Shown: piece by piece, positions 2,766 through 11,095 of the stretch | Layout of the letters: every line of letters begins with the position of its first letter | Position numbering within the stretch: position 1 is the stretch's first letter | Source: Planctomycetia bacterium | GTDB taxonomy: Bacteria > Planctomycetota > Planctomycetia > Planctomycetales > Planctomycetaceae | Direction of reading: 5' to 3' | Length of the DNA: 33,953 nt | Assembly (NCBI GenBank): GCA_016200145.1 | Contig: JACQFH010000023.1 | Coordinates: 1 to 33,953, forward strand | Position numbers and translations under genes: made by a program | Notes under the pieces: model-generated | Databases searched by the model: none | The model's input: the letters and a program-made list of their open reading frames with translations, nothing else | What the model was told of the DNA's origin: nothing

Positions 2766-3359
2766 ATGGCCGAAACGACTCTGTTCAAGAACCTGTTGTC
2801 CCGCCTGCAGGCCGGGGACCATGACGCGGGTGCGGCCGTGTACCAGCAGTTCGCGGCGCGGCTGATGGCGCTGGCGCGCCGGAAGCTCGATCCCCGCGTC
2901 CGCGAGAAGCTCGACCCGGAAGACGTGGTGCAGTCGGTGTTCATGAGCTTTTTTCACCGGCATGCCGACGGCGAGTACGAGATTCCGAACGTCGAAAGCC
3001 TGTGGGGCCTGCTGTCGCTGATCACGATCCGCAAGTGCGGGCACAAGATCGAGCACTTTTACGCCGCCTGCCGCGACGTGGCCCGCGAATCAAAACCCCG
3101 GGCGCTCGACGGCGACGCCACCCGGTTCTGGGAAGCCGTGGCCCAGGGGCCCACTCCCTCTCAGGCGCTGCTGTTGACCGAGACGCTGGAAGAGGTAATG
3201 CGGCCGCTGGACGCGCGGCAGCGGCAAATCCTGACCCTGTCGCTGCAAGGCTACGAGCACTCCGAAATTGCCACGCAACTGCAGTGCAGCGAGCGGACCG
3301 TGCGGCGCATCCTCGAACGGGTGCGGACCCAGCTTGAACAGATGCGCGGGGAAGAGTAA
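2766..3359 (+). CDS. ECF-type RNA polymerase sigma factor
   Basis: A 197-aa sigma-70 family protein of the ECF class. The sigma2 region spans about 25-90: AVYQQFAARLMALARRKL, then DPEDVVQSVFMSFF, the helix that binds core polymerase. The sigma4 region is about 140-195, with the helix-turn-helix LQGYEHSEIATQLQCSERTVRRIL that reads the -35 element. Length and the DPEDVVQSVF signature fit the ECF factors that are greatly expanded in Planctomycetes. AGGAA lies 8 nt before the ATG. No anti-sigma factor is adjacent. The gene ends 14 nt from the stop of the convergent kinase gene, and in this phylum kinases and such sigma factors are often neighbours, so a signalling link is possible but not shown. 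Confidence 0.93.
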   Translation: MAETTLFKNLLSRLQAGDHDAGAAVYQQFAARLMALARRKLDPRVREKLDPEDVVQSVFMSFFHRHADGEYEIPNVESLWGLLSLITIRKCGHKIEHFYAACRDVARESKPRALDGDATRFWEAVAQGPTPSQALLLTETLEEVMRPLDARQRQILTLSLQGYEHSEIATQLQCSERTVRRILERVRTQLEQMRGEE

Positions 3360-3373
3360 CGGCCCACCCCGGC

Positions 3374-6300
3374 TCACCGGGACTTCACCGCTTCGCACAG
3401 GTGCGAGTGCACCCAGACGGGATCGAACCGAAACCGCCTGCGGCTTCCGCCCGACAGATCGAGCAGTGAAAATCCCGATCGTTCGAGCACCCTGTGGATG
3501 TAGGCGGTCAGCTTTTTCCCCTGAAATTCGACGGTAACGGTTTCCGATGGTTCGACGAAAAAGTACCCCTCGGCGTCGACGGCGTCGGCCTCTTTGAGGG
3601 CCACGGCTTCCAGCAGCATCCGGTACAGGGCCGTGAGCGCAATGCTGTTCGGCGACTGTTTTTCGCCGCTGGGACGATTGTGCGTAATGGTTCCGCGGAT
3701 CAGCCGCAATCCGAATAACCGCTCACGGAGCGCCGCCTCGTCGTATTTTCGTTCCGGGGCGTCGGGGGCGGCAAACATTCCCATCAATTGATTCAGGGAG
3801 TCGAGATTGTTGAGGCAAGCGACGACGGTTCGATGCTCGCGCGCCCACTGCCTGATAACGCCCCGCCGCCCGGCGTCGATCGTCGGATGCTGGCCCGCGT
3901 CGCCGGAATACGTCACGTCGGCGAACTCGCCTTCGCGGCGATAACCGGCCTTGTCCCAGCGTTCGTATTCGTCGATCGACATTTCGCGTCCGCCGGTGGT
4001 CCGCAGACGAAGCTGGAACCCGTCGTATTCGCGCGCCGCGACAAGCAGGTCGCCCGTCGTTGTCAGCCGCGACGGCCGCAGCGCCACGAGCTCGATCTGC
4101 CCGGCCGGCGGTTTCCTGTCGCTTTTGTGCGACTCCATTCGCAGGAACTCCCAGAACGATTCGGGACGGCCGACCAGCACCACATGGATCGGCCGGGTAT
4201 CGCCGCGCATGACGAAGCCCTGCACCTGCTCGAGAATTCTGACTGCATCGTCCGTGTGAATTTCGTCCAGCGAATCCAGGAACACCAGTGTCCTGCCAGA
4301 ATCGGCCAGTTTCGCCAGGAGCGAGTCGATCTTGATCGGTTGACCCTGGCTGAGCGCCAAGAGCTCGCTCAAGACCACCGTCCCTCCGTCTGAGGCTTCA
4401 GCCACGAGGTCGGGGCGCAAAATCGTCGTTTCGCGCCAGTCGTTCTCGTACAGCTCGCGCAAGTCGACGACGGCCGTCGCCTCTGGCAGCGTTTCGGCCA
4501 GACGGTTCACCAGATACGTCTTACCCGAGCCGCTCGGACCTGTCACCATAGTCAGCAGCGACTGGCTGCCGTTCGATCCCGATTCGGGCTGCCTTGCCGC
4601 AGCCGCAACATTCGTCTGCAGGCGCTGCATCAGTGCGACGTTCTCTTCGAAATAATACTCTTTCAACACGTCGTGCGTTCGAGGGCCCTCCACGAGTGGA
4701 ACGGGCAGCAGCCGGCTTTCAACATCACGGAGCTTTTCGTATGGCACATGCCTGGGTTGCGAGAAAAACCAGACGGCCAGCACGGCGGCCGCGGCCAGGG
4801 CCATTCCCCCGATCAGGCGCGCCGGCCGCAAGACGCGTTTCGGCGCAAATTCTTCGGGGACTGCATTGAATTCGACGGCTGTCGCGGTCCGACCGCGGCC
4901 GACGGCCGGCGGCGGCTGCGCGGCATGAGGCTCTTCCGGCCGCTGAGGGGCAGTCGCTTCCGACGGCATGTCGGGCTCTGAGATCGCCTCCAGTCCGACC
5001 GTTTGCGCCAGCGAGGACGTCCCCTGCCAAGATGTGTAGCCCGGCAGTGCGGACGCTCCGGGAAATGCGGCCAGAAGTTCGGTCATGGTCTGAAACCTGC
5101 GGTCCGGCTGCTTGTCGACCATTCGCTGGAAGATCGCATCGAGCCAGTCTGGCACGTCGGGACGCGCGTCGGTCAGTCGCGGAATCTCGGATTCGAGATG
5201 GGCCACGAGCTTCTTCATCCGCGTGTCGGCTTCGAAAACGGGGTGGCCGACGAGCAGGTAGTACAGTGTGCAGCCCAGACTGTAGACGTCGGCCCGCCGA
5301 TCGGCCTGCTTGGCGTCAAGGGCCTGTTCGGGAGATACGAAATCCACAGTGCCCAGAATATTGGATGGGTTGGTGAGATCGCCCTGAGCGGCGCTGCTGG
5401 CTTCGGTCAGCGATTCTTCGATGCGGGCCAGCCCCATGTCGAGAATCTTGACGGCCCCGCTGTCTTCCAGCAGCAGGTTAGCGGGCTTGATATCGCGGTG
5501 AATGACCCCCTGCCCGTGCGCGTACTCCAGCCCGCGGGCGGCCTGAACGATACACTCGACGGCCATCTCGACCGAAAACGGCCCATGCCGCCGGACCAGC
5601 GTCGCCAGGTCGTTGCCGACGACGTACTGCATCACCAGCACGTGCATGTCGTCGAACTGATCGGCGTCGTACGCCGTAACGATGTTCGGATGATTGAGCC
5701 GTGCCGCCGCGTGCACCTCTCTCAAGAAACGATGGACGGCCTCGGGAGATCGCAGGGCCCTCGGCGAGATCGTCTTGAGCGCGACCAGGCGGTTCATTCT
5801 GCGGTGCTGGGCTTTGAAGACCGCCCCCATGCCCCCCTGGCCGATCCGTTCGAGAATGATGTAATTCCCCAGCACCCTGCCGGGCTGGATCGACGACCAG
5901 TAGGCCTCCTCTTCCGCACTCGGCGCAACGGGCGCCTCGGTGAATTCGGTGCGCTCTTCCGTGTGGGTGGCAAGGCCGGCGGGATTCAGTTCACCTGGTT
6001 CGGTCTGATCTGCTTCGCTGAAAGGGCCGTTGCCACCGGTCGCCGGCCTGGCGGAGATTCCGGACGGTTTGTTCTCATCGTCTTCGGGGGGCTCCCGGAG
6101 GCTTTGCTGCGCCAGGGCCGCGAGATCATCAGCACCGACGTCGTGCCCCAGGATGCGTTTGAGCAGGCCGGCCAGCGCCGCCGCCAGCGACGGCCCCTGC
6201 TCGGTCCTGCCGTCTGCGGGATTCACGTATTCGGGCTGCTGGCCGTCGCGGCTGCGGCCCAGGAACAGTACCGCTTCGGAGTCCCCTCCCTCCCGAAAGA

Positions 6301-7102
6301 CGACCAGGGGATCCAGGGGCAGCGGCGCGGGCCGCCCTGGCCAGAGCACCGCCACGCAAGGGGGATGGATCTGCGTCGCGCCGTCGCGCAATTGCAGCGG
6401 CGCCACGCGCTCGGAGCGCTTTCCCACCAGCGTTCGCAACGAGACCAGATCGCGGCCTGCGGCGCCCGCCTGCAGCGCGTCAATACAAACGAGCCGCGTA
6501 CCGGGTGGACCCAGCAGAGAGTTTCCTTCCGTGCGAATCAATTCGACCGCCGCCGGGAGTAACAGCGGCGCCATCTCATTCGTATAGAAGAAGTTCAGTC
6601 GCCCGCCGGACGGCCCAAAGACTTCGTTGCCATAGCGGGCAACCGCTGCGAACAGCTCCAGAAGCGAACAACTCGCCGGTGCGATGGCTGAGTCCCGCGC
6701 CCCTTTGCGAATCCTTCGGTAGAGCGCCAGGATGGCGGGTCGGTCCGGGCGCTGCGCCTGGAGCCGTCCGTGCACGTGTGCCAGCGGATGGGCCGAAGTT
6801 TCGCGGCGTTCCGCAAAGCGCCGTGCCAGGTCGTTCAGCATTCTCACCCATTGGCCGAGCGCGGGAAGCGCGAGGTTCTGCAGCAACCGGTCGATCTTCG
6901 GCGACCGCGCCGATCCGCCTTCGACTTCCTCGAGATACATCGCGATGGCGGTCGCCGCCGCCAGCTTGATCTGCGCCTCGAACAGGTAGAACGCGCTGTC
7001 GTGCCGGCCGCGCGCGTCGCGGGCGGTGGAAGCCTGGCCGTAGAGCTGCGCAATCGGCAACGGAAGTTGGAGCGCGAAATCGCGATCGAGTTCCAGGCCC
7101 AT
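3374..7102 (-). CDS. Membrane Ser/Thr protein kinase fused to a NACHT-like P-loop NTPase
   Basis: A 1242-aa multidomain protein, numbered from the ATG at 7102. Residues 1-325 are an alpha/beta module (opening GLELDRDFALQLPLPIAQLY) that I believe also occurs at the N-terminus of other large planctomycete kinases; its function is unknown. A kinase domain spans about 414-676: IGQGGMGAVFK glycine loop, catalytic Lys443, HRD at 535-537, DMG at 555-557 instead of DFG, and GTVDFVSPEQ activation segment. A Pro-rich linker leads to one membrane segment at about 763-780. The C-terminal part has a Walker A (GPSGSGKT, 855-862), a Walker B LVFLDSLDEI (939-948) and a VLVGRP sensor-like strand, which resemble NACHT/STAND ATPases, and ends in a probable winged-helix region. 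An in-frame TTG at 7189 would add 29 residues; neither start has a clear Shine-Dalgarno site, and the ATG sits where the conserved module begins. Confidence 0.9.
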   Translation of the reverse strand: MGLELDRDFALQLPLPIAQLYGQASTARDARGRHDSAFYLFEAQIKLAAATAIAMYLEEVEGGSARSPKIDRLLQNLALPALGQWVRMLNDLARRFAERRETSAHPLAHVHGRLQAQRPDRPAILALYRRIRKGARDSAIAPASCSLLELFAAVARYGNEVFGPSGGRLNFFYTNEMAPLLLPAAVELIRTEGNSLLGPPGTRLVCIDALQAGAAGRDLVSLRTLVGKRSERVAPLQLRDGATQIHPPCVAVLWPGRPAPLPLDPLVVFREGGDSEAVLFLGRSRDGQQPEYVNPADGRTEQGPSLAAALAGLLKRILGHDVGADDLAALAQQSLREPPEDDENKPSGISARPATGGNGPFSEADQTEPGELNPAGLATHTEERTEFTEAPVAPSAEEEAYWSSIQPGRVLGNYIILERIGQGGMGAVFKAQHRRMNRLVALKTISPRALRSPEAVHRFLREVHAAARLNHPNIVTAYDADQFDDMHVLVMQYVVGNDLATLVRRHGPFSVEMAVECIVQAARGLEYAHGQGVIHRDIKPANLLLEDSGAVKILDMGLARIEESLTEASSAAQGDLTNPSNILGTVDFVSPEQALDAKQADRRADVYSLGCTLYYLLVGHPVFEADTRMKKLVAHLESEIPRLTDARPDVPDWLDAIFQRMVDKQPDRRFQTMTELLAAFPGASALPGYTSWQGTSSLAQTVGLEAISEPDMPSEATAPQRPEEPHAAQPPPAVGRGRTATAVEFNAVPEEFAPKRVLRPARLIGGMALAAAAVLAVWFFSQPRHVPYEKLRDVESRLLPVPLVEGPRTHDVLKEYYFEENVALMQRLQTNVAAAARQPESGSNGSQSLLTMVTGPSGSGKTYLVNRLAETLPEATAVVDLRELYENDWRETTILRPDLVAEASDGGTVVLSELLALSQGQPIKIDSLLAKLADSGRTLVFLDSLDEIHTDDAVRILEQVQGFVMRGDTRPIHVVLVGRPESFWEFLRMESHKSDRKPPAGQIELVALRPSRLTTTGDLLVAAREYDGFQLRLRTTGGREMSIDEYERWDKAGYRREGEFADVTYSGDAGQHPTIDAGRRGVIRQWAREHRTVVACLNNLDSLNQLMGMFAAPDAPERKYDEAALRERLFGLRLIRGTITHNRPSGEKQSPNSIALTALYRMLLEAVALKEADAVDAEGYFFVEPSETVTVEFQGKKLTAYIHRVLERSGFSLLDLSGGSRRRFRFDPVWVHSHLCEAVKSR

Positions 7103-7307: not shown

Positions 7308-8096
7308 ATGATCGGCGAATGTTGCCCTTTTCCGGTGCCCACCCATATGTTGCGTCGCATCGCGGGGTTCACCCTGCGGAAAATTCTGCCCGCGCGAATG
7401 AGACACGAAGTCGAGTTGCGCTGGCGGATGTTCGAGTTTCGCGGTCACCAGGCGTTTTGCCCCGTCTGCCGGTCGCATCTGCGCGGGTTTCTGCCGGCGA
7501 GCTGGTCGGCAACGGCGACCTGCCCGGTCTGCCGGACGTGGGACTGCCACCGGCTGGTCTGGTTGTTTCTCGAACGGTGTCTGAAGATCGAGCAGTCGCC
7601 CACGTCGATGCTGCACATCGCGCCCGAGCCGTTTCTGCGCCGACGCCTGTCGGCGACCGCGAGCGTCAGCTACGTGTCAGGCGATCTTCGCGCCGGGGCC
7701 GCCGACATCCGTTGCGACATCCACCAATTGCCGTTCCGGGACGGCCAATTTGACCTGATTTATGTATCGCACGTCATGAATGTGGTTCGCGATCCTCAGC
7801 AGGCTCTGCGGGAATTGTTCCGAGTTCTGAAACCGGGCGGCATTGCCATTCCGCAGGTCCCCGTGATGACCGACGGCAGTCCGACCATCGAAGCGCCGGA
7901 TTCCGACGATGCGCGGATGCAGTTATTTCAGGATAAGTACATCCGGCGCCTGTTCGGCGAGCGCGAATATCTTCGCGATCTCGAACAGGCCGGGTTTGCG
8001 GCAACTTATGACGACCGCCTGGCCGAGCTGCCGAAAACGGAATTCGCCCGCTACGGACTTTCGGGAACACGGCTGCTGGTCTGCTCGAAATCGTAG
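7308..8096 (+). CDS. Zinc-ribbon class I SAM-dependent methyltransferase
   Basis: A 262-aa protein with two parts. Residues 51-75 hold paired CPVC motifs (Cys51, 54, 72, 75) that would bind one zinc. Residues about 100-200 are a methyltransferase core of the type-11 kind: DIHQLPFRDGQFDLIYVSHVMNVV is the motif II/III region with the DAxxLPF-like element, followed by LRELFRVLKPGG. Motif I is unusual: where most members have a DxGxGxG loop this one reads MLHIAPEP, a variant I associate with methyltransferases of surface-polysaccharide loci. The substrate cannot be read from sequence. A second ATG at 7347 (MLRRIAGFTLRK) is an equally plausible start; neither has a good ribosome binding site. The stop is 14 nt from that of the convergent transporter gene. 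Confidence 0.85.
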   Translation: MIGECCPFPVPTHMLRRIAGFTLRKILPARMRHEVELRWRMFEFRGHQAFCPVCRSHLRGFLPASWSATATCPVCRTWDCHRLVWLFLERCLKIEQSPTSMLHIAPEPFLRRRLSATASVSYVSGDLRAGAADIRCDIHQLPFRDGQFDLIYVSHVMNVVRDPQQALRELFRVLKPGGIAIPQVPVMTDGSPTIEAPDSDDARMQLFQDKYIRRLFGEREYLRDLEQAGFAATYDDRLAELPKTEFARYGLSGTRLLVCSKS

Positions 8097-8110: not shown

Positions 8111-8992
8111 TCACCGCGACAGGATGATCAAGACGGCCCCGACGACCATCACGGCTGAGCCAACGAGGCGTCGGGCGATGTACGGTTCGCGGAAGACGCG
8201 CCAGCCGAGAAAGACAGTCAGCAGCGTGGAGGTCTGAAAGAGGGCCAGGGCCGCGGCGACGTGGAACCCGGTCAGGATCATGAGGGTGCAGAATTGCATC
8301 AGGCCCGTCGTCGTTGCCAGCGCGACGCAGGAAAGCCGGTTCGCCTGCAGGATTCGCAATTGCGACTTGACAGCGTTTTTCGAAAACACGAGGGCGGCGA
8401 CCAACGAGACGATGAAGCCGGCACACGACCAGACGGTGAATGCCGTCAACGGCGACGAGGCGGCCAGGGCCCGCTTGAGAAAGACAGCTTCGACGGCCGA
8501 CAGAACCAGCCCGCCGATCCGATACTGAACGCCCCGATCGCGGAAAAACCGGACGAACACGTTCTGGCTCGCGCTTTTGTCGCGATCGACGATCAGGTAG
8601 CTGCCGGCGACGATCAGGGTCAGCCCCGCCAGACTGCCGCAGGAGGGGATTTCATTGAGCAAAATGAATCCCGGCACGAGGCTGACGACCGACTTGTAGG
8701 CATTCACAGGTCCCAGAAACGACAGGTCTGAAATTGCGAGCGCCTGCACGATCAGGGCGTTGCCGGCGACGGCGAGAACAGTACTCACCGCCATGTTTGT
8801 CCAGAACGCGGAGCTCAGCGGAGGCGGGGACATCGCCAGGAGCGGCAGACAGAGGATCGCCAGCAGTCCGTGCGTGATCCCGATGACGAATAGCGGCGAA
8901 GCCTGCCGGTTCGTCAGGACCTTTTGAAAGACGTTCGACAGCGGATTGGCGACGATCCGCAAGGCGACGCAGAGCCAGAACAGGGGCTGCAT
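8111..8992 (-). CDS. EamA/DMT-superfamily membrane transporter
   Basis: A 293-aa, strongly hydrophobic protein with about ten membrane helices arranged as two EamA halves (about 5-135 and 155-290). The typical end of the first half is visible (ALIVQALAISDLSFLGPVNAYKS, then LNEIPSCGSLAGLTLIVAGSYLI), and the second half closes with LGWRVFREPYIARRLVGSAVMVVGAVLI, matching the family's ExxxxxxxxGxxLIxxG pattern. Members export or exchange small metabolites such as amino acids or sugars at the inner membrane; the substrate here is unknown. It starts 12 nt after the stop of the prolyl oligopeptidase gene on the same strand, so it is probably cotranscribed. No strong Shine-Dalgarno site precedes the ATG. 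Confidence 0.88.
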   Translation of the reverse strand: MQPLFWLCVALRIVANPLSNVFQKVLTNRQASPLFVIGITHGLLAILCLPLLAMSPPPLSSAFWTNMAVSTVLAVAGNALIVQALAISDLSFLGPVNAYKSVVSLVPGFILLNEIPSCGSLAGLTLIVAGSYLIVDRDKSASQNVFVRFFRDRGVQYRIGGLVLSAVEAVFLKRALAASSPLTAFTVWSCAGFIVSLVAALVFSKNAVKSQLRILQANRLSCVALATTTGLMQFCTLMILTGFHVAAALALFQTSTLLTVFLGWRVFREPYIARRLVGSAVMVVGAVLIILSR

Positions 8993-9004: not shown

Positions 9005-11095
9005 CTACTGTAACTGCTTCTTCAGAAACGTGTATGCCAGGGCCGACATGAAGGCGGCCTGTTTGTTGTCGGCGGCGCCGCCGTGGCCCCCTTCGATGTT
9101 CTCGTAGTACAAGACGTTGTGCCCGTGATCCTTCATGCGGGCCACCATCTTCCGTGCGTGGCCGGGGTGCACGCGGTCGTCGCGGGTCGACGTCGTGAAC
9201 AGGGTTCGCGGATACTTCGCTTCGCGCTTCACGTTGTGGTACGGCGAAAACGTGCGAATGAACTCCCACTCGCGCGGCGTGTCGGGGTTGCCGTACTCGG
9301 CGACCCAGCTCGCCCCCGCCAGCAGCTTGTGATACCGCTGCATGTCGAGCAGGGGCACCTGACAGACAATCGCGCCGAACAGGTCGGGCCGCCGCGTCAG
9401 CATGTTGCCCATCAAGAGGCCACCGTTGCTGCCCCCCATCGTGCCCAGATGCTTCGGCGACGTCAGTTTGCAGCGCACCAGGTCTTCGCCCACGGCGATG
9501 AAGTCGTCGTAGGCCTTGTGCCGGTTCTCTTTGAGGGCCGCCTGATGCCATCGGGGACCGAACTCTCCGCCGCCGCGGATGTTGGCCACGACGTACACGC
9601 CCCCCGACTCGAGCCAGGCCGCGCCGGTGGTCGCCTGGTATCCGGGCACCATCGGGATTTCGAAGCCGCCGTATCCGTACAACAACGTCGGGTTCTTGTC
9701 GTTCATTTCGAGTTTGCTGCGCGACACCTGAAAATAGGGGATCTTCGTGCCGTCTTTCGACGTGGCTTCGTGCTGGCTGACTGTGAGTCCTTCGGCATTG
9801 AAGAACGCGGGGCTTTCCTTGAGTTTCTCGGGCGGCCCTTTCCCCAGCGTGCCGTAGAGCAGGCTCGTCGGTGTGAGATACCCGGCCACCGTCATGAAGT
9901 AGTCGTCGGAATCATCGGGATCGACCGGGCTGGCGCTGACGGTGCTGAATTCGGGCGCTCCTTTTACTTCTTCTCGGCGCCACTCTTTGCCGTCGCGGGT
10001 GAGCACGTACAACCGGTTGCGGACGTTGTCGAGCTCGTTCACCAGCAGGTGATGCCGCGTCGCCGAAAATCCGGCGAGCGATTTGCGGTCAGTGGGCTCG
10101 AACAGCATGTCGAAGCGGCGTTCACCTTTGACAAAGGCATCGAGATCGGTCGCCAGCAGGGCGCCGGCGGGATACGTCTTGCCGCCGACCTTCCACTCGG
10201 TTCGCAGCTCGAAGAACAACAGGTCGCGATACGAAGACGCCTCGGCGTCGTCGGGCTTGTCGATCTTGATCAGCTTGCCGTCGCGGCGGAGGAACAGCTC
10301 GTTTGTCCAGAACGTCACCGCCCGCGAGACCCAGTCGCGCTCGAAGCCGGGAGTCTTCGAGCGATGCGCCTGCACGGCGACGTCTTCCGGCTGCCCTTCG
10401 AATACCTGCTGTGCGTCGGCGACCGGGGTGCCTCTGCGCCACTCGCGCACGATGCGGGGGTAGCCCGATTGAGTGAGCGATCCGGGGCCGAAATCCGAGG
10501 CCACAAACAGGCTGTCGATGTCGCGCCAGCCGATGCGGGTCTTGGCTTCCTTCAGGTAGAAGCCGTCTTTGACGAACGACTTGGTCGAAACGTCGAATTC
10601 GCGGGTGACGGTGGCGTCGGCGCCGCCGCGTGACAGCGACAACAGGCACCGGTCATACGACGGCTTGAGGAAGCTATTTCCCTTCCAGACCCAGTTTTCG
10701 TTTTCTTCCTTGGCCAACTCGTCGAGATCAAGCACGGTTTCCCACGCCGGCTTGGCTTTGCGATACTCAGCCAGCGTCGTCCGCCGCCACAGGCCGCGCT
10801 TGTTTTTTGCGTCGCGCCAAAAGTTGTAGTAGTAGTCGCCGGCCTTGCTGACGAATGGAATGCGGGCGTCGGAATCGAGGATCTTGAGGAGCCGGTCGTT
10901 GAGCTCCTGGAACTCAGGCGTGCCCGTCAGCTCGGCCTGACTCTCGGCATTCCGCTCTTTCACCCAGCTCAGCGGCTTTTCGCCCGTGACCTCTTCCAGC
11001 CAGACGAACGGGTCGCCCGCCTCGTCGCCGGAGACTACCAATGTTGGAACCATCAATGCTCCCAGGGCGCAGAACCGAAGCCAGAATTTGAACAT
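9005..11095 (-). CDS. Secreted prolyl oligopeptidase family (S9A) serine peptidase
   Basis: A 696-aa enzyme, the usual length of the family plus a signal peptide (about residues 1-23, ending LVVSG). Residues about 26-60 start as family members do (DPFVWLEEVTGEKPLSWVKERN). A beta-propeller covers roughly 75-410 and the alpha/beta hydrolase domain 415-696. The catalytic triad is visible: Ser556 in GGSNGG, Asp640 (or 639) in TRDDRVHPGH, and His671 in EGGHGG. The family cleaves short peptides after proline; this one would act outside the cytoplasm, probably in peptide scavenging. It is followed at 12 nt by an EamA transporter gene, which could move a product, though this is speculative. Confidence 0.95.
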   Translation of the reverse strand: MFKFWLRFCALGALMVPTLVVSGDEAGDPFVWLEEVTGEKPLSWVKERNAESQAELTGTPEFQELNDRLLKILDSDARIPFVSKAGDYYYNFWRDAKNKRGLWRRTTLAEYRKAKPAWETVLDLDELAKEENENWVWKGNSFLKPSYDRCLLSLSRGGADATVTREFDVSTKSFVKDGFYLKEAKTRIGWRDIDSLFVASDFGPGSLTQSGYPRIVREWRRGTPVADAQQVFEGQPEDVAVQAHRSKTPGFERDWVSRAVTFWTNELFLRRDGKLIKIDKPDDAEASSYRDLLFFELRTEWKVGGKTYPAGALLATDLDAFVKGERRFDMLFEPTDRKSLAGFSATRHHLLVNELDNVRNRLYVLTRDGKEWRREEVKGAPEFSTVSASPVDPDDSDDYFMTVAGYLTPTSLLYGTLGKGPPEKLKESPAFFNAEGLTVSQHEATSKDGTKIPYFQVSRSKLEMNDKNPTLLYGYGGFEIPMVPGYQATTGAAWLESGGVYVVANIRGGGEFGPRWHQAALKENRHKAYDDFIAVGEDLVRCKLTSPKHLGTMGGSNGGLLMGNMLTRRPDLFGAIVCQVPLLDMQRYHKLLAGASWVAEYGNPDTPREWEFIRTFSPYHNVKREAKYPRTLFTTSTRDDRVHPGHARKMVARMKDHGHNVLYYENIEGGHGGAADNKQAAFMSALAYTFLKKQLQ

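Follow-up and report, generated by a model that had tools for sequence, protein, structure and literature searches.

A planctomycete Hanks-type kinase joined to a HEPN-like module and, behind a single transmembrane helix, to a STAND-like P-loop NTPase domain

A gene on a contig of a Planctomycetia bacterium (GenBank assembly GCA_016200145.1, contig JACQFH010000023.1) raises the question of how a kinase, a membrane helix and a P-loop NTPase came to be joined in one chain, and of what such a protein might sense and signal. The window referred to below is the whole stretch of DNA that was analysed, positions 1 to 33,953 of this contig. The gene lies on the minus strand, with its ATG at 7102 and its stop codon at 3374-3376, and its parts are listed in Table 1. 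The initial annotation had read kinase, one membrane helix and P-loop NTPase in a single chain, and the open reading frame, the Pfam matches and the motifs confirm this main description. Judged by its relatives, the 1242-residue protein is a chimera of three separate protein families.

Table 1. Features of the kinase gene and its convergent neighbour (positions in the window; residues of the 1242-residue protein)
Feature	Residues	Positions	Strand	Basis or remark
Whole gene		3374..7102	-	1242 aa: N-module, Hanks kinase, TM, P-loop NTPase
N-module	1-320	6143..7102	-	HEPN-like helical part and strand-rich part; unmatched in Pfam and PDB
E42-x3-K46	42-46	6965..6979	-	conserved Ex3[KR] of the N-module; E in 41/41 and K/R in 41/41 relatives
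YGNEVFGP	157-164	6611..6634	-	degenerate version of the YRNxxxGH motif of relatives
Hanks-type kinase domain	415-676	5075..5860	-	intact Lys443/HRD/DMG; lacks the N-module family's usual insert before HRD
Single transmembrane helix LIGGMALAAAAVLAVWFFS	763-781	4760..4816	-	hydrophobicity; kinase side more positive
P-loop NTPase domain	793-1242	3377..4726	-	stand-alone homologues of exported type in 5 class genomes
Walker A GPSGSGKT	855-862	4517..4540	-	intact in 6/6 family members
Walker B TLVFLDSLDEIH	938-949	4256..4291	-	DS[LI]xE in all family members
VGRPESF		4154..4174	-	conserved [GS]R[PG] motif downstream of Walker B
FRFDPVWVH		3407..3433	-	conserved C-terminal [FY]RFxPxWxH motif
ECF sigma factor gene		2766..3359	+	PF07638; convergent neighbour

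The same architecture had been proposed as something to look for in other planctomycetes, and the answer is divided: the combination of N-module, kinase and transmembrane helix recurs, but the full three-part fusion is found in one draft genome only, which consists of 742 contigs. Neither the N-module nor the NTPase domain was detected in the congener (G001). Scans of genome and viral contigs with the whole protein and with NTPase peptides returned no relatives, and scans of plasmids likewise none.

The kinase is the most readily classified part. It matches Pfam Pkinase with 177.7 bits (E 3.8e-52) and the positions of its motifs (Lys443, HRD 535-537, DMG 555-557) agree with this match, as expected of a Hanks-type Ser/Thr kinase with intact catalytic residues. 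The genome has about 100 kinase matches; with three of these kinases the window kinase shares 54-59% identity and with the kinases of the N-module family about 30-37%. In a maximum-likelihood tree of 37 kinase rows, some on long branches, the own-genome set and the N-module-family set are split with support of 99/99. The majority of the N-module-family kinases also carry an insert before HRD, which extends the spacing between glycine loop and HRD to up to 197 residues; this spacing is 115 in the window kinase and 114 in its own-genome relatives, and the insert is absent. Identity, tree and insert thus indicate different origins of N-module and kinase: by these comparisons, the window kinase is a graft.

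The N-terminal 324 residues have no match in Pfam, and a PDB profile search was also empty. Sequence searches found the N-module in at least 8 of 397 class genomes and profile searches in at least 11 of 397 class and at least 31 of 382 phylum genomes, often with several copies per genome; with four to five candidates scored per genome, all these counts are lower bounds. About 50 planctomycete proteins with the module are known to us from these searches, and in most of them it stands upstream of a kinase and a transmembrane helix. The plan of the family is N-module, kinase, one transmembrane helix and a variable C-terminus of WD40 repeats, HEAT repeats with an FGE-sulfatase domain, TPRs or PD40 repeats (the WD40 and HEAT assignments were made by eye from the sequence in part of the members). 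Proteins of another planctomycete family (f38; L112:696-4703, L110 and L113) deviate from this plan: their N-module is followed by an AAA_16 STAND-like ATPase with apparently degenerate Walker A and by TPRs, and there is no kinase. Other variants include a tandem of three N-module kinases of about 1260-1290 residues each (L098, G513:C292:10000-24500), and relatives in f8 genomes (L119, L120) that have no RNx4H motif and whose divergent kinase domains have no HRD, making them possible pseudokinase versions. An N-module 54% identical to that of the window across residues 4-103 is present in a further genome (L036:7091-7420, G268), in a frame that ends after about 110 codons, close to the contig end.

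Conservation across 42 nonredundant copies of the N-module is highest in a few columns. These include E42 with its partner in Ex3[KR] (K in 32 and R in 9 of 41 copies), as well as R158 (38/39), N159 (39/39) and H164 (37/41). The HEPN superfamily contains many RNases and has two hallmarks (Anantharaman et al. 2013, PMC3710099): Rx4-6H, in which R is followed by a polar residue that is mostly N, D or H, and Ex3[KR] with its acidic residue. The relatives have both hallmarks. The window N-module retains E42-K46 and N159, but Arg and His are replaced by G158 and P164; following the reasoning of PMC3710099, this loss makes the window N-module probably inactive as a HEPN-like domain. None of 38 N-module members matched a HEPN family of Pfam at E <= 10, and weak matches to RecJ_C (2/38) and ORF20A (2/38) were taken as chance. 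AlphaFold, run on the N-module without an alignment, returned a model of pLDDT 39 with a low-confidence helix pattern compatible with HEPN. Because no known HEPN family was matched, we infer the fold from these signatures, with moderate confidence. The 'unknown alpha/beta module' of the initial annotation is, on sequence conservation and a weak prediction, better described as a HEPN-like helical part followed by a strand-rich part.

A possible but clearly less likely reading takes the N-module for an adaptor or phospho-substrate domain unrelated to HEPN, with a coincidental R-N-x4-H. The empty Pfam HEPN and PDB profile searches fit with it; against it, the columns of both HEPN signatures are in the top group for conservation across about 40 divergent members, and the helix pattern, even at its low confidence, agrees with HEPN. 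This alternative concerns the N-module only and is compatible with a receptor kinase.

The C-terminal domain had been called a NACHT/STAND-like NTPase with Walker A and Walker B. Both motifs are located, and the STAND-like part of the assignment holds: Pfam AAA_22 (36.0 bits, cut-off 27) and AAA_16 (33.0 bits, cut-off 32.6) score above their cut-offs. The NACHT part does not, as PF05729 remains with 20.6 bits below its cut-off of 26.7. The NTPase family matches the profiles AAA_16, AAA_22 and NPHP3_N, and NACHT weakly in four of six members. A PDB profile search with the domain gave insignificant matches only, including TnsC and plant NB-ARC proteins, and AlphaFold models of both end domains, made without alignment, had pLDDT values of 36-39. 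With NLR-like NACHT/STAND NTPases the domain shares Walker A, a Walker B of the type hhhhDSLDE, R[PG] and the C-terminal [FY]RFxPxWxH; it differs from them in its score below the NACHT gathering threshold, in its seemingly exported relatives and in that no C-terminal sensor repeats of the STAND type were seen. The conserved terminal motif suggests a possible winged-helix arm.

Pairwise searches with the NTPase domain in 59 related genomes returned the self-match only, and weak pairwise matches in 392 phylum genomes proved on inspection to be non-relatives (UvrA and others). When the C-terminal 450 residues were searched in 287 class genomes, relatives were found in five genomes besides the own one, all of them stand-alone proteins of about 430-567 residues with 26-37% identity. 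Walker A is intact in all six family members, Walker B contains DS[LI]xE in all, and [GS]R[PG] and the terminal [FY]RFxPxWxH are common to the family; the family's NLAGN motif reads NNLDSLN in the window protein. The neighbours of the stand-alone genes, compared by eye, include no shared partner. All five stand-alone homologues start with a hydrophobic stretch followed by an alanine-type cleavage-like site, resembling a signal peptide, a feature shared by 11 of 118 background genes, a number to be taken as approximate because the criterion is crude and its threshold was set at the weakest of the five homologues after these had been inspected. The homology to the window protein begins just past the transmembrane helix of the latter, which therefore looks as if a kinase with transmembrane helix had been fused to the mature portion of an exported protein.

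Only one segment of the chain is a candidate for a membrane helix above threshold (KD 2.11; second best in the chain 1.33). The initial annotation was thus right in assuming a single helix, but had placed it at about residue 790, slightly C-terminal of its actual position. In the N-module family the kinase-side flank of the transmembrane helix is the more positive one in all 37 measurable proteins, with a mean net charge of +3.8 versus -0.2; for the window protein the difference is weak (+2 on the kinase side, 0 on the other). A survey of planctomycete single-pass kinases (PMC11032199) predicts a cytoplasmic kinase and, for the most frequent accessory domains, a periplasmic position, and describes the periplasm as devoid of ATP. 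Because its stand-alone homologues have signal-peptide-like N-termini and the homology starts after the window helix, the NTPase domain is most likely exoplasmic. Together with the flanking charges in the family this makes a strong case, from sequence features, that NTPase and kinase lie on opposite sides of the membrane, as had been proposed for a chain with one helix.

Cytosolic kinase-AAA_16 fusions are well known, and in those of the PknK type a Ser/Thr kinase is followed by a STAND-like ATPase with no transmembrane helix between them. The window protein has the same succession of kinase and STAND-like ATPase, and the hydrophobic segment could be re-entrant or buried, with the NTPase cytoplasmic and the whole protein a cytosolic kinase-STAND switch. 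Intact Walker A and B motifs in a nucleotide-requiring domain would fit such a location, as would the positive charges that flank the window segment on both sides. We nevertheless regard a cytoplasmic NTPase as improbable, given the signal-peptide-like N-termini of all five stand-alone homologues, the single candidate helix above threshold and the strongly positive-inside layout of kinase and helix in 37 relatives; the helix between the two domains and the likely position of the NTPase across the membrane from the kinase set the window protein apart from the PknK type.

The ECF sigma factor gene noted next to the kinase gene is indeed there, as a PF07638 match, but a functional link is not borne out. 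The two genes are arranged tail-to-tail, and on this orientation we reject an ECF-kinase operon for the window gene. Among ten N-module loci checked, an ECF gene is near one only, also tail-to-tail (by a single-sequence search, which divergent ECF genes may escape), and the congener has no orthologue, the best identity being 36-38%. The ECF gene is most likely an unrelated neighbour and not part of the system. ECF-kinase pairing is expanded elsewhere in the genome: 15 of its 20 PF07638 ECF genes have a kinase gene just downstream, in the same direction. The remaining neighbours, encoding a methyltransferase (7308-8096, +), an EamA transporter (8111-8992, -) and a prolyl oligopeptidase (9005-11095, -), have no obvious tie to the kinase.

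Taken as a whole, we lean towards reading the protein as a chimeric single-pass receptor-type Ser/Thr kinase with an extracytoplasmic NTPase-fold sensor and a dead HEPN-like scaffold. The exoplasmic C-terminal domain would be the sensor and may bind a nucleotide or a protein ligand via its STAND-like core; a change of its state, or its oligomerisation, would let the cytoplasmic kinase domains meet and trans-autophosphorylate. The N-terminal module, devoid of the catalytic-type Arg and His, would serve in dimerisation or as a binding scaffold, and because it would now be a scaffold, the kinase would be the signalling output of the protein. Most relatives have the motif intact, and in these the module may instead act as an RNase switched by the kinase. 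Our confidence in the switching mechanism and the ligand is weak, and a nucleotide-driven switch would have no obvious supply in a periplasm devoid of ATP. The weak flanking charges of the window helix, the low pLDDT of the models, the unmatched N-module and the restriction of the fusion to one genome count against the receptor as well.

In Ire1 a trans-membrane sensor is linked to a Ser/Thr kinase and to KEN, an RNase domain of HEPN type, and RNase L is likewise a kinase with KEN. The motif-intact N-module family has an equal set of parts, a likeness of domain composition only: the order of the parts is reversed, the RNase parts are likened in type and not by demonstrated sequence homology, the RNase role in the relatives is putative, and in the window member the motif is gone. 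As a bolder and rather doubtful proposal, planctomycetes might possess a family of receptor kinases that are a reversed Ire1, with HEPN-type RNase, kinase, transmembrane helix and swappable exoplasmic sensor; in the window protein, the sensor would have been swapped for a STAND-like NTPase of exported type, reading protein ligands or nucleotides on the far side of the membrane from the cytoplasm, and the kinase alone would signal after loss of the RNase site. Closer at hand are the planctomycete single-pass Hanks kinases with C-terminal WD40, TPR or FGE domains (PMC11032199), which share with the window protein the cytoplasmic kinase, the one transmembrane helix and the predicted periplasmic accessory domain. 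The main text of this survey does not use the terms ATPase, NACHT or AAA, and we found no HEPN-like N-module described there. In the PMC open-access literature we found neither a bacterial HEPN-kinase receptor nor an exported STAND NTPase, which does not prove their absence.

Quite improbable is a STAND-type immune or conflict protein, in which the NTPase would sense damage or invaders, with the N-module as an RNA-cutting effector. The f38 proteins, with N-module, AAA_16 and TPRs, do resemble known HEPN-STAND-TPR architectures (PMC3710099), but in the window protein kinase and transmembrane helix separate module and NTPase, and the N-module matches no known HEPN family. It also has neither R nor H of the motif, no defence gene is among the scanned neighbours, and the PADLOC matches fall, besides weak P-loop matches, on the kinase part; those to PD-T4-6 were rejected as generic kinase matches. 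Very improbable is a non-functional chimera drifting after gene shuffling or misassembly, as might be suspected from the unique fusion, the lost HEPN-like motif, the altered NLAGN motif and the fragmented draft genome: the frame of 1242 codons is unbroken with high GC3 in every part, kinase and Walker motifs are intact, and two in-frame misjoins at domain borders are improbable.

That a conserved, seemingly exported family of P-loop NTPases should keep its nucleotide-binding motifs intact is unexpected, since ATP is considered absent from the periplasm, and this family offers a direct test case for bacterial nucleotide sensing outside the cytoplasm. The recurrent architecture of HEPN-like module, kinase and transmembrane helix would be a bacterial counterpart to Ire1 in composition, and with it a kinase-gated membrane RNase becomes testable in bacteria.
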